64,000 nt of DNA, taken from Deltaproteobacteria bacterium. GTDB lineage: Bacteria; Desulfobacterota; Desulfobulbia; Desulfobulbales; Desulfobulbaceae. The stretch covers positions 1-64,000 of the forward strand of contig JAJRQC010000129.1 of the NCBI GenBank assembly GCA_024280455.1. Direction: 5' to 3'. Shown piece after piece: positions 9,472-18,071 of the stretch. How positions within the stretch are numbered: position 1 is the first letter of the stretch; each line of letters opens with the position of its first letter. The notes beneath the pieces are model-generated. The model ran no database searches. It was not told where the DNA came from and worked only from the letters and a program-made list of their open reading frames with translations. Both the position numbers and the translations under genes were made by a program.

Positions 9472-9595
9472 TTCGCCGACACGCCCTTGACGGAGAGGAA
9501 AGAATATGAGAACATGGTGTAGGAGTCATACCTTTTATACACGAAAAACAGCGCTCAGAAACAGATGGTCACGAATGCAACAGAATAGGATACAT

Positions 9596-12574
9596 ATGAA
9601 GTACCTCTGTTTTTCTTCGTCTCTTCTACGGGGCCTGTTCCTGCCACTGGCTCTGCTCGTCCACTTCTTATTCATAACTCCTGTTCCAGTCCCTGCTGCG
9701 CCCCAGCCGCCCATCAGGGTCGGCTATTACGAGAACCCGCCAAAACTCTTTAATCTCGACCAGGGCGCGCCCAGGGGAATTTTCGCTGAAATCCTTGAAG
9801 ACATCGCCGAAAAGGAGAACTGGCATCTTCAGTGGGTGCCCGGCAGCTGGCAGGAGGGGCTGACCCGTCTTGAATCTGGTGAAATCGACATAATGCCCGA
9901 TGTTGCGTACTCGCTCAAACGGGCCGAGAAGTATACCTTCTCAGACGAACCGATTCTCATTAACTGGGCGGTTCTGTATACCCGAAACGGTGTGCATGTA
10001 GATTCCCTGCTTGATCTGAACGGAAAGAGAATAGCTGTTATGCGGGGAAGCATCCATACCGACGGCCCCGAAGGGATTAAAAACCAGGTGAAAAAATTCA
10101 ATCTCACATGTGAGTTTATTGAATTTGACAACTATCAGGAAGTTTTTCTTGCCCTGCAGAACGGTGTCGCCGATGTCGGCGTGGTCAACAGACTGTTTGG
10201 AGCGACTTCCCAGGAGCTGTTCGATGTCCGGCCGACAACGGTGGTTTTCAACCCCAGGCACCTTAAATTTGCCTTTCCGCCGGACGGGAACCGTACGCCC
10301 TACCTGAAAAAGACAATAGACAGCCACCTGAGAAATGCCTCTCTTGCAACAGATTCGAAAATACAACAAATAATCAGATCAAACCTGCAGGGGTTGGCGC
10401 GGGAAAATAGCGGCAGTACCAGTGAAAAAAGCATACACCTTACACCTGGGGAAAAAGAGTGGATCAGGCTGCACCCAAAAATACGGGTTGGAGTGGATCC
10501 GGAGTTTGCCCCCTTTGAATTTTTCGATAAAAACGACCAATACAGCGGTTTTGCCTCCGATTACATCAGCATTCTAAACAAACGGCTGGGCCTCAACCTT
10601 GAAATCGTCAGGCGGCCGCCCTGGAAAGAGGTCATGTCGATGGTCAAAAAAGGAGAAATCGACGTGCTTCCTGCGGTCGGTTTTACCGCTGAACGTTCCC
10701 GATTTCTGACCTTTACAAACCCGTATATCGGTTTTTACCGGATGATTTTCTGCCGGACCGAAGCGCCTTTCATATCCGGCCCGGAGGACCTGCACGATCT
10801 CACCATCGCCGTCCAGGCCAGTTCATCGCATGCAGGCTGGCTTAGAGAACACACCGATTTTACCCCTGTCTATTTCGACACCCTTGAAGACGTCATCAAG
10901 GCGGTTTCCAATGGAGACGCCGATGTCTTTATCGGCAACCTGGCCGCGTCCACCTACTGGATTCGAAAACTCAATATTATAAATCTGCGAGCGGCGGCAC
11001 CGGTGTCGATGGAGCGCCGGCTCCTGCACATGGCAGTGCGAAAGGACTGGCCGATTCTGGTCGGAATACTAAACAAGGGGCTGGCTTCGATTTCACCCCG
11101 GGAGGCCGAAGAAATCCGTACCCGCTGGACGGCATCCGGCTACAACATTGGCCTTTCTTCCCGGGTGGTTCGGCAGCGAATCGGTTTAATCGTCGCTGGA
11201 GCAATGTGCATTGTTGCCCTGTTCTGGTTCTGGAACAGACGGCTGAAAAAGGAAATCGACCTGAGACAAAAGGCGGAAAGAGGCCTTCTGGATTCCCAAA
11301 AACAACTCGAGGATCGGGTCCACGACCGGACCCGTGAACTGGCCGAGGCAAACGTATCTCTTCAGCGGGAGATACGGGAGAAGGACCGGCTGCGGACAAA
11401 ACTGCATCGTTCTGAAAAAATGGAGGCCCTGGGGCTTATGGCCGGCGGCGTGGCCCATGATCTCAACAATATTCTGACCGGCATCGTCGGTTATCCCGAC
11501 CTTCTACTGGTCGACCTGCCCGAAAACAGTCCGTTGAGACGGCCCCTTGAAGTCATAAAGGACTCAGGAAACAGGGCAGCGGCAGTGGTCTCGGATCTGC
11601 TTACCGTTGCCAGGGGAGCGATGCGTGAAAAACTACCGACGAATCTCAACACATTGATAGACGAGTACCTCCAATCACCTGAATACAGGGAACTCAAATC
11701 ACGTTTTCCCTCGATCACCTGCACGACAGTTGCCGCTCCGGATCTAAAAAATATTCTCTGTTCTCCGGTCCAGATCAAGAAATGCTTCATGAATATTATA
11801 ACCAATGGTTTTGAGGCGATAGGAACTGAAGGAACGGTTTCTCTGGAAACGAAAAACGTAACAATCGAGGAAACGGAAAACAGCGTTTCTCCGGGCCCGG
11901 GAGAATGGATAACCCTTTGCGTATCCGATACCGGACCGGGTATTTCCACCGAGGATCTGGAGCACATCTTTGAGCCTTTTTATTCCAAAAAAGTTATGGG
12001 AAGAAGCGGGACCGGGTTGGGCCTTGCGATAGTCTGGAATACGGTCCACGATCATGGCGGCGGTATCCGGGTCGAAAGCAGCAGCAGGAGAACCTCTTTT
12101 ACGCTTTTCTTTCCGGTGACCGACGTCTCGGAATCCGCCCGGCCTACGGAGTTGCCCTATTCCATGTTAAAGGGCAACGGAGAACGCATCCTTGTTGTTG
12201 ACGATGAGCCCCAGCAGAGGGAAATAGCGACCGGCATGCTGGTGTCGATGGACTATACCGTTGACAGCGTCGGCTCGGGAGAAGAGGCAGTCCGGTTTCT
12301 GGAAAACAACCGGGTCGAGCTCCTCATACTGGACATGATTATGAAGCCGGGGATGAGCGGTCTTGAGACCTATAAGAAAATCCTGCAAATCCGCCCCGGT
12401 CAAAAGGCGATTATCGTCAGCGGCTTTTCCGAAGATGAAGAGGTCATGGAGGCCATCCAGCTAGGGGCGGCGGGATTTATCCACAAGCCATATACCTATG
12501 CCCAGCTCGGCACCGCTGTCAGAAAGGAACTCAAAAGCTCTGGAGCAGCCTCCCCTTCGCAGCCAACGCCTTGA
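9596..12574 (+). CDS. BvgS/EvgS-type hybrid sensor histidine kinase with two periplasmic SBP_bac_3 domains
   Basis: The 992-residue sensor has a signal peptide (about residues 1-35), then two tandem solute-binding (Venus flytrap) domains at about 40-265 and 300-525. The second begins KIRVGVDPEFAPFEFFDK. A membrane helix follows (LIVAGAMCIVALFWFW), then a coiled linker, HisKA with GGVAHDLNNILTG carrying the phosphohistidine, HATPase with SDTGPGIS and GTGLGLAI, and a C-terminal receiver with ILVVDDEP and phospho-aspartate in LLILDMI. It should sense an amino acid or similar small ligand. I chose the ATG at 9596, which precedes the hydrophobic leader and has AGGA upstream, over 9506. No HTH regulator is adjacent, so output is unknown. 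Confidence 0.9.
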   Translation: MKYLCFSSSLLRGLFLPLALLVHFLFITPVPVPAAPQPPIRVGYYENPPKLFNLDQGAPRGIFAEILEDIAEKENWHLQWVPGSWQEGLTRLESGEIDIMPDVAYSLKRAEKYTFSDEPILINWAVLYTRNGVHVDSLLDLNGKRIAVMRGSIHTDGPEGIKNQVKKFNLTCEFIEFDNYQEVFLALQNGVADVGVVNRLFGATSQELFDVRPTTVVFNPRHLKFAFPPDGNRTPYLKKTIDSHLRNASLATDSKIQQIIRSNLQGLARENSGSTSEKSIHLTPGEKEWIRLHPKIRVGVDPEFAPFEFFDKNDQYSGFASDYISILNKRLGLNLEIVRRPPWKEVMSMVKKGEIDVLPAVGFTAERSRFLTFTNPYIGFYRMIFCRTEAPFISGPEDLHDLTIAVQASSSHAGWLREHTDFTPVYFDTLEDVIKAVSNGDADVFIGNLAASTYWIRKLNIINLRAAAPVSMERRLLHMAVRKDWPILVGILNKGLASISPREAEEIRTRWTASGYNIGLSSRVVRQRIGLIVAGAMCIVALFWFWNRRLKKEIDLRQKAERGLLDSQKQLEDRVHDRTRELAEANVSLQREIREKDRLRTKLHRSEKMEALGLMAGGVAHDLNNILTGIVGYPDLLLVDLPENSPLRRPLEVIKDSGNRAAAVVSDLLTVARGAMREKLPTNLNTLIDEYLQSPEYRELKSRFPSITCTTVAAPDLKNILCSPVQIKKCFMNIITNGFEAIGTEGTVSLETKNVTIEETENSVSPGPGEWITLCVSDTGPGISTEDLEHIFEPFYSKKVMGRSGTGLGLAIVWNTVHDHGGGIRVESSSRRTSFTLFFPVTDVSESARPTELPYSMLKGNGERILVVDDEPQQREIATGMLVSMDYTVDSVGSGEEAVRFLENNRVELLILDMIMKPGMSGLETYKKILQIRPGQKAIIVSGFSEDEEVMEAIQLGAAGFIHKPYTYAQLGTAVRKELKSSGAASPSQPTP

Positions 12575-14201: not shown

Positions 14202-16962
14202 TTAAGAAGAATTAGTACCGGATGAATGTAAAGCGTTCTCCAGAATGCGCTCCAGCCCATTGACGTCGTACGGTTTGGAGATCGTAGCGACAAATCCGTA
14301 TTGTTCATATTCCGCCATGACCGGATCATTGGAATAGCCGCTGGAGACTATAATCCGGGCCTTGGGGTCAAGCTGAAGCAGCAGTTCGGCTGCCTCTTTC
14401 CCCCCCATACCGCCGGGAACGGTCAAATCCAGAATAACCAGGTCAAAGGGTTTCTCAGAATCCATGGCGTTGCGATAATTTTCAACAGCCTCCTGCCCGT
14501 CACGGACCGTTGTTACCTGATGGCCGATGAAAGACAGCATCTCAGTGGCCAGTTCCCGGATCATCTCCTCATCATCCATGAGCAGAATCCTTGCCTGCCC
14601 AGGAGGAACGGATTTATTTTCAGGAGGCACCTGCACTACATCCTGCCCCCCGACCGGCAGTAAAATGGTAAAGGTTGTTCCTTTTCCAGGTGTTGAAGAA
14701 ACACTGATGCGGCCGTCATGCTTCTCAAGGATGGAGTGGCAGATGGCAAGCCCGAGCCCACTGCCCTCGGTCCTGGTTGAAAAATAGGGGTCAAAAATTT
14801 TTTCGGCCACCTCGGGTGCCATACCGGGGCCGTCATCACTGATGATAATCCGTATGCAACGATCACCAAGAAACTGCAATTCTCCGGAACAGTCCCGGAA
14901 ATTCTCCGCAGTTATGCGTAGCTGCCCCCCCCCCGGGCATGGCCTGCCTGGCATTGAGAATGATGTTCTGGATGACCTGGCTGATCTGTCCCGGGTCGAC
15001 TTCTGCAAACCACAAATCGTCAGCAATATCATAGGAACACCGGACCGGCGAGCCCCGAAGTACAAAACCGACCGATTCCCGGATAATTTCAGAAATGGAG
15101 GCCGTCTGTTTGACCGGGTCACCTCCCTTGGAGAAGGTCAACAGTTGATTGGTCAGGTGGCGGGCCTGACCGCCGGCTTTTTCCGCCTGGGCCAGCAGGC
15201 CTTCCACCCGGTCACAGGAAATGCCCTCTGTCTGCATGCGGGCACGGGCCAGACTAATATTGCCGAGTATTGCCGCTAAAATATTGTTAAAATCATGGGC
15301 AATCCCACCGGCAAGCACCCCCACCGATTCGAGTTTTTTGACTTTGAACAGCTCCTGCTCAAGTCTGTTCTTTTCAGTTACATCACGAAAGACCACCACC
15401 ACACCGATAACCTGACTTTCCGGATCGTAAATAGGGGCCGCACTATCTGCTATGGCGTGCCGGCGGCCATCACGACCAAGAAGCAGGGTATGATTGGCCA
15501 GTTCAATAATCTTCCCGGTCCGTAAGGCCTCACCGGCCGGATCGGTGCTTGATTTACCGGTTTTTTCATCGACAATATGGAAGACCGCCGGCAACGCCAT
15601 CCCCCGGGCCTCATTCTGACTCCAACCGGTCAACTGCTCGGCGACCCGGTTGAGCAGAACCACCCGCCCCTCAAGATCGGTGGTGATGACACCATCACCA
15701 ATACTGCGCAGGGTGACGGCAAGCTGTTCCTTCTCCCTGGCCAGAGCAAGCTCTGCTTTTTTCCTTGCATCGATATCCCGGATAACGGCAAGGACACAGC
15801 TTCGGTCACCAAAGTGGACATAATTCAGGGACACATCCCCCCAGAACAACGTCCCGTCTTTCTTTTTCCCCAACCACTCAAAACGGACTGAACCGTGGAC
15901 AATGGCCTGTTCAATCTTTTCTCCCGCCTCCTGCATTCCATAGGGTGACGCCCCCTGACTGATATCCTCAACGCTCAAGCCCAACAATTCCTCAGCACTG
16001 TAACCGTACAGTTGCTCCGCCCCTGTATTGACTTCCAGAAATTTTCCGCTCTCAGGATCATGGATAATAATAGCATCACCGGGGGCATTAAAAATGGCCC
16101 GATATCGTTCCTCACTTTCCTGCAAAACCGCAAGGGTTTCAGACAACTGCTCCTCACGTTCCTCAATCCGGACAATCTGCTCTTCACTTTCTTTCATTTT
16201 GGACCGAAGAGACGCCACCATCTGCAGAATGTCATTCTTAAGCACTTGCAGTTCCAGTATGTACGAACCCTTGAGCTGGACTTGATAGTCGCCGTTTTTT
16301 ATTCTGGAAGCGAATCCGGTCAGGTTGATAAGGGGAGTGACAAAATTATGCTGCAGCCACCAGGTAAAAATCATCGCCACCATAAGAACCAGAGCAAGAA
16401 CGCCAAGGTTAAAACGAACAAAGAGGTTTCGGGGGGCAAACAGTTCGTCCTCATCAATGCTCAGGCCGACAAAACATTCCCAGGGAGTATAATATTTGAC
16501 GACGGCCCGCCTTTGTACCCCACCAACCTGATACACGACTGGTGACTCTCCCGACTGCAGACGGGTAAAAAAAAGGCTGAAGTCGACGGAGGAAGTATCC
16601 TTAAAATCCGATGAAAGGAGGATATCTCTATCGGCACGGATAACAAACAGTCTCCCGGTCTGTTTATACAGATAGTCGGAAAAGGACTTGAGGGCCTCAT
16701 CCATAATTTCCCGTCGATGTATCCGACTGTCTTCAAGACCTACACGGGAAAGGGTTGCGTATCGCCTGTCCACCGACTCCATCCGGGCACGAAGTTCACC
16801 GGCCAGCAATTCCATCCCGTACTGGTTGATAAGATTATCCATGATCCGTATTCCCGAATAAAGCAGGGGCATGGACAGGATGAGGATCAGCGCCGTCATG
16901 GACAACAGAAAGCCTGACCGAATGGAAGAGATACGCAGAAAGCGCAGAAGCATGTTTTTCAT
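14202..16962 (-). pseudogene. Membrane hybrid histidine kinase, frameshifted at a G10 tract
   Basis: Read with one frame change this is a 919-residue hybrid kinase. It has two membrane helices flanking a periplasmic Cache-like sensor (about residues 15-205), HAMP, two PAS domains, HisKA with GGIAHDFNNILAA, HATPase with SDDGPGMA and GSGLGLAI, and a receiver with ILLMDDEEM and VILDLTVPGG. The upstream frame reads to QAMPGGG and then leaves frame; the downstream frame resumes at QLRITAEN. The break is a run of ten Gs on the coding strand (14925-14934); nine would restore the protein. As sequenced, the kinase stops soon after the N-box and lacks G1, G2 and receiver. Its ATG directly follows the stop of the upstream binding-protein gene. 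Error, decay and phase variation are all possible. Confidence 0.88.
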
Positions 16963-17955
16963 TTACCTGACCACGATATCCACAGCTTCAAGAGCAGCAA
17001 ACGGAACCGACACCTGCAGGCGTCCGGCTGCTGCCAGATTGACAAACGCGGTCTGCCGGGACGGGCGCGGTATGGTTTCTTCAATGGTTTGTTTACCGTC
17101 GCAAATGTCGGCGGTCATCTCCGCCGCCTGTCTGCCGCAGTAGCCGAACGAATTGAAGAGACCGGCAACGATGTTGCTCGTCCGGACATAGTCGCCGATC
17201 TCGGCACGCCCGATATCCAGGGTCAGCGAAGTAATAACCGGCAGGCCGCTCTCGGCAAGCCCTTCACGGTGCTGAAAGACACCGACAATACCGCCGTAGG
17301 CCTCGACATGTTGCTCCCTGAATACCCGCAAAACAGTGTCAACCCCCTGGGCAAGATCAATATAAAGGATATCAACCCCGTGCCGGTCAGCTAAAGACAA
17401 ACCCTCGTATGCAGCCTTGAAAATCATATCAGCCGGAATACGCGAGTCAAAGACATAGGCGTAATTGTCCATTTCAGGCAGGAGCAGGCGGGCCAGCCGC
17501 AGGATCTTTTCCGGTGGATACATCAGATAGATACCGGAGAGGTTCGTCTTCGGCGCCTCAGTTACCGAGGGCAGCATTTTCAGGGCCACGGAACGAAGAA
17601 CCGGGACAAATAACTGAGGGGTTGCGCTTCCCTTGAGTTTGTCGCGGGCATACATGGAAACCCAGCCGCAGGTGATGAACATGTCGGCTGAATCCTTATA
17701 TTCGGCAACGGCGGCCAGCACCTCGGGGACTGAAGCCTTATCAGCGGTACTGGTCAGGACGTCGACATAGGTGATATTTTCTCCTTCCACATATCCCCGC
17801 TTCCGCATCCCCTCTTTTACCTCTTTAATAACGGTGGCAAAATAGGTCGGCGCAATCCGGTAGCGGATAAACACCACTTTTTTCATCTCTGCAGCCTCAA
17901 GCGTGGAACAGAAAACCAGGCCCGACAGAAGAATAAAGGCGAGGCGAAAAACCAT
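16963..17955 (-). CDS. Periplasmic ABC-type substrate-binding protein (ABC_sub_bind family)
   Basis: The 330-residue protein starts with a signal peptide (FRLAFILLSGLVFCSTLEAA) and resembles the PF04392-type binding proteins: KKVVFIRYRIAPTYFATVIKEVKEGM at the front and repeated Rossmann-like lobes, with SVTEAPKTNLSGIY in the middle. No ABC permease or ATPase is nearby. Its TAA is immediately followed by the ATG of the hybrid kinase, so the two are translated together, and the protein probably presents its ligand to that kinase's periplasmic domain. The start at 17955 is preferred over 17973 because GGGAGGT precedes it at good spacing. The ligand is unknown. Confidence 0.85.
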   Translation of the reverse strand: MVFRLAFILLSGLVFCSTLEAAEMKKVVFIRYRIAPTYFATVIKEVKEGMRKRGYVEGENITYVDVLTSTADKASVPEVLAAVAEYKDSADMFITCGWVSMYARDKLKGSATPQLFVPVLRSVALKMLPSVTEAPKTNLSGIYLMYPPEKILRLARLLLPEMDNYAYVFDSRIPADMIFKAAYEGLSLADRHGVDILYIDLAQGVDTVLRVFREQHVEAYGGIVGVFQHREGLAESGLPVITSLTLDIGRAEIGDYVRTSNIVAGLFNSFGYCGRQAAEMTADICDGKQTIEETIPRPSRQTAFVNLAAAGRLQVSVPFAALEAVDIVVR

Positions 17956-18071
17956 GGCGACCTCCCGGGTCAATGGTTGAGGGTTTGTTGATTAAAAAAA
18001 AATCGCCGGCATGAGATGTAGTCAATGGGCATCAGAAAAAGTGATCTGACGGCACACCTGCCCCGCATATT

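Follow-up and report, generated by a model that had tools for sequence, protein, structure and literature searches.

A frame-breaking run of ten guanines in a hybrid histidine kinase gene of a draft Desulfobulbaceae genome is probably a homopolymer length error rather than a genetic switch

A hybrid histidine kinase gene is interrupted, in the draft assembly of a Desulfobulbaceae genome, by a run of ten guanines, which raises the question of whether this run acts as a reversible on/off switch of the sensor or whether its length is an error of the assembly. The gene is located in a 64,000-nucleotide stretch of DNA (hereafter the window), corresponding to contig C143 of a 4.15-Mb draft of 173 contigs, with closest named matches in the Desulfobulbaceae and Desulfocapsaceae. 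If the ten Gs were true, an environmental bacterium would possess a switch resembling that of bvgS. The evidence presented here points instead to a mis-stated homopolymer length in the draft as the origin of both the ten-G run and the frame break, a reading to which we assign a probability of roughly three in four.

Read directly, positions 14925-14934 of the window are ten Cs on the plus strand, corresponding to ten Gs on the coding (minus) strand. They fall within the codons for ...NARQAMP-GGG and specify the glycine triplet (Gly-Gly-Gly) of AMPGGG, a conserved motif located where the ATP-binding domain of the hybrid histidine kinase starts. This homopolymer within the ORF decides the frame: as assembled, the upstream frame (16962 to 14863, minus strand) comprises 699 codons and ends at a stop approximately 20 codons past the run, in line with the 20-odd residues claimed by the first-pass annotation, and the alternative frame is open across the tract down to 14202. 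According to ORF and Pfam analysis, the first part of the gene (14863..16962) encodes a membrane sensor, two PAS domains, a HisKA domain and the start of the ATP-binding domain (699 aa), and the second part, placed in the other frame of the same strand (14202..14924) and also recognized by its codon usage, encodes the remainder of HATPase_c together with a receiver domain. HisKA, HATPase_c and receiver are thus all present, but they share a single frame only with nine Gs. The resulting 919-aa read-through displays the Pfam order PAS-PAS-HisKA-HATPase_c-REC, with REC at 792-906 and HATPase_c covering profile positions 2-109 of 111 at 93.4 bits, compared with 76.9 bits for the downstream piece alone. 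The ORF coordinates, residue counts and motif first reported for this locus were therefore right, and the Pfam matches agree with the claim that nine Gs would yield one 919-residue kinase with intact ATP-binding and receiver domains.

Directly upstream of the kinase (16963..17973, minus strand) lies a gene for a putative periplasmic binding protein, assigned through a weak, below-cut-off match to PF04392 (ABC_sub_bind), whose stop codon abuts the kinase start. The gene pair is conserved in another member of the Desulfobulbales (locus L078, CAMYLK010000007.1), where the same two genes are found in the same order with 49-56% identity and where the kinase frame runs uninterrupted over 931 codons. 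A second hybrid kinase encoded nearby in the window (9506-12574, plus strand) is intact and carries two fused SBP_bac_3 sensor domains.

Downstream of the break the kinase shows no decay. Over its 240 codons the second half has a codon-usage score of 0.22 per codon, with the other frames at about -0.5 and intact genes, in chunks of the same size, at 0.31 (s.d. 0.085), and no further stops or indels were seen in these 240 codons. This leaves three possibilities for the break: that it arose very recently, that it can be reversed, or that it is not genuine. A real and recent one-base slip would have inactivated the kinase in the sequenced population, leaving a 699-aa product that still has its sensor, its PAS domains and HisKA but is unable to bind ATP, and hence a dead pathway. 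The break does stand in the consensus sequence, the run is among the longest of the genome, in which seven G/C runs reach a length of at least 10, and the loss of one kinase could be tolerated by a genome that encodes many others. Such fresh decay is nevertheless considered unlikely, as the kinase gene is without any other lesion and as recN, plsX and trpB, in which inactivation is implausible, carry the same type of lesion (see below).

A reversible break would imply phase variation, with the G run growing and shrinking by slipped-strand mispairing and turning the kinase off and on in the manner of the C run of bvgS. This is consistent with the intact, undecayed second half and with a bvgS-like anatomy, in which a hybrid kinase gene contains a homopolymer and is truncated in one state (PMC1891110). 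The comparison with relatives speaks against it, as none of the orthologs or paralogs shares the tract, and the assembly provides one sequence with a single run length. The L078 ortholog has neither the glycine triplet nor a G run at the motif, and among 107 motif matches from paralogs and relatives, which include some chance translations, no other G/C run longer than 7 was found at this position; the idea that the tract is conserved in the kinase family, whether by descent among orthologs or by selection, was rejected accordingly. Comparable tracts do occur elsewhere: when 258 genomes of the order were searched for the motif with a run of Gs behind it, five genomes besides the present one yielded a total of six such kinase genes (L178, L180, L184, L185, L188 and L189), which have 8, 10 or 11 Gs exactly at MPGGG and are all in frame. 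A long G run thus arises occasionally as a by-product of Pro-Gly-Gly-Gly codons. Two of these kinase genes (L185 and L189) are near-identical, are located on different contigs of one genome, and both have ten Gs in frame at the motif. The copy in the window alone is out of frame, which makes it a singleton break. Of the proposal that ten Gs interrupt the kinase, the interruption itself stands for the sequence as assembled, whereas its interpretation as a reversible on/off switch found no support: the tract is missing from orthologs and paralogs, every other kinase gene with a similar run keeps its frame, and recN, plsX and trpB are broken at homopolymers in the same assembly (see below).

The same comparison bears on recoding, by which a ribosomal frameshift on the Gs, or slippage of RNA polymerase there, would allow the gene to produce some full-length kinase despite its ten Gs. 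Both frames are open around the tract and polymerases can slip on homopolymers, but no relative shares the frame transition, and slippage on bacterial transcripts has mostly been reported on A or T runs (PMC3711429); we regard this explanation as highly improbable.

Long G runs are rarer in the window than base composition predicts, with 4 eight-G matches observed versus a mean of 8.05 in dinucleotide shuffles of the window, which does not favor phase variation; the kinase run itself is not improbable given this base composition. Genome-wide, approximately 20 G/C runs of at least 9 were found, and 3-12 in the congeners. Most of the runs in this genome scored as intergenic or unclear, not as coding, which again speaks against phase variation, and the notion of a genome rich in contingency tracts was rejected. 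Two coding runs of 9-10 leave the frame of their genes (a penicillin-binding protein gene and one for a MoxR-type ATPase) intact, which counts against the error reading. The same stretch of approximately 60 bases with a nine-G run was found at two distant genome sites (L160:2971-2979 and L173:2990-2998), representing a dispersed repeat. At L170:3006-3016 (minus strand) a ten-G run directly precedes the ATG of a gene for a secreted fibronectin-type/phosphatase-N-like protein, where a change in length would alter the spacing of the start region.

The G/C runs of at least 9 and most runs of 8 were examined, followed by a codon-usage screen of approximately 1.3 Mb of the genome, and several unrelated genes were found to shift frame exactly at homopolymers in this assembly. 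The genome's only copy of recN is split at a run of eight Gs (L194, contig C13, ~2371) into two frames matching TIGR00634 positions 1-444 and 443-560; the gene is full length and single copy in seven out of seven congeners, whose DNA at the corresponding motif has no long run. The only copy of plsX is split at eight As (L205, C126, ~15489; profile positions 1-77 and 75-329), and the only copy of trpB above the family cut-off at six As (L197, C63, ~7599; positions 1-101 and 97-383). An RND adaptor gene is split at seven As (L246, C26, ~16040) and fliK at eleven Cs (L163, C56, 3057-3067). A cell with no second route of phospholipid synthesis would hardly be expected to survive without plsX. On the other hand, coding G/C runs of 7 and 8 scored in frame in 10 of 10 and 15 of 16 cases, respectively, so that the error rate of the assembly is not high. 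The codon-usage screen returned many candidate frame breaks, most of which proved on inspection to be ordinary overlapping gene junctions, and a candidate in L202 that looked antisense was dismissed as spurious; a stricter version missed known positives, and the screen therefore yields a lower bound and not a rate. A mutator phenotype through lost mismatch repair was also rejected, as mutS and mutL are intact in this genome and a repair defect offers no ready explanation for the breaks.

Two further loci were recorded in the course of this work. At L197:2503 (minus strand), a succinate dehydrogenase/fumarate reductase flavoprotein gene that follows the cytochrome subunit gene has no ATG, GTG or TTG at the expected start, indicating either an unusual start codon or another sequence error. 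Near L204 ~5776 (minus strand), a TPR-type ORF overlaps a PEGA/FGE-sulfatase ORF that is without a usual start codon for 200 bases, possibly a further frame break.

The broken genes are informative on phase variation, for which the other genes broken at tracts should be dispensable or of a surface type: fliK would fit, but recN, plsX and trpB do not, and no cell would phase-vary housekeeping genes of this kind. We thus consider phase variation of the kinase improbable, and give slightly less credence to the broader scenario in which a free-living relative of the sulfate reducers toggles a binding-protein-coupled hybrid kinase by G-run slippage in the ATP-binding motif of the kinase itself and has fliK variably switched off at its C11 run. 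It is because single-copy housekeeping genes also break at one-letter runs that the kinase break is most likely a run-length error; a homopolymer length error accounts at once for the breaks in the kinase, recN, plsX, trpB, the RND adaptor gene and fliK, and we infer that these are sequence errors rather than mutations. The singleton nature of the break, the undecayed second half, the intact mutS and mutL, the intact L078 ortholog and the six long-G kinases in frame argue for the same reading. In a survey of prokaryotic frame transitions, sequencing error was the expected cause of singletons with intact homologs (PMC3711429), and it is typically by homopolymer indels that genes become fragmented in long-read drafts (PMC12007338). 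A counterpoint is that true slippage would likewise break the longest runs. The cell most likely possesses an ordinary intact operon, encoding the periplasmic binding protein and then a 919-aa membrane hybrid histidine kinase, and the draft gives a wrong length for a G run that by chance falls on the Gly-Gly-Gly codons of the ATP-binding motif, the kinase break being one of at least half a dozen homopolymer errors in this assembly. Sequencing error, which the first-pass annotation had kept as its fallback, is therefore the best-supported explanation, and the case serves as a caution that a phase-variable regulator that looks convincing in one draft loses support once frame breaks in housekeeping genes are checked.

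Few matches were obtained in the literature on kinases switched by homopolymers, and the precedent on record is bvgS of Bordetella pertussis, which phase-varies at a C run, with C6 giving the full-length and C7 a truncated kinase (PMC1891110). Both bvgS and the window gene encode a hybrid sensor kinase whose frame is set by a homopolymer within the ORF and which, when out of frame, is truncated and non-functional. For bvgS, however, two alleles were observed and tied to phenotype, whereas the window kinase is known from one assembled sequence with no second allele; in addition, the window run lies in a different place of the protein, and its assembly has homopolymer breaks in housekeeping genes. 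The window kinase thus shares only its anatomy with a bvgS-type switch. In gene order and domain order, and at 49-56% identity, it resembles the Desulfobulbales hybrid kinases paired with a periplasmic binding protein, as in L078, from which it differs by its glycine triplet, its G run and its broken frame. Although the breaks found here number only a few per megabase, unlike typical homopolymer errors of draft assemblies (PMC12007338), they share with such indels, and with the singletons described for prokaryotic genomes (PMC3711429), that single genes are broken exactly at homopolymers, that these genes are otherwise intact, and that single-copy housekeeping genes are among them.
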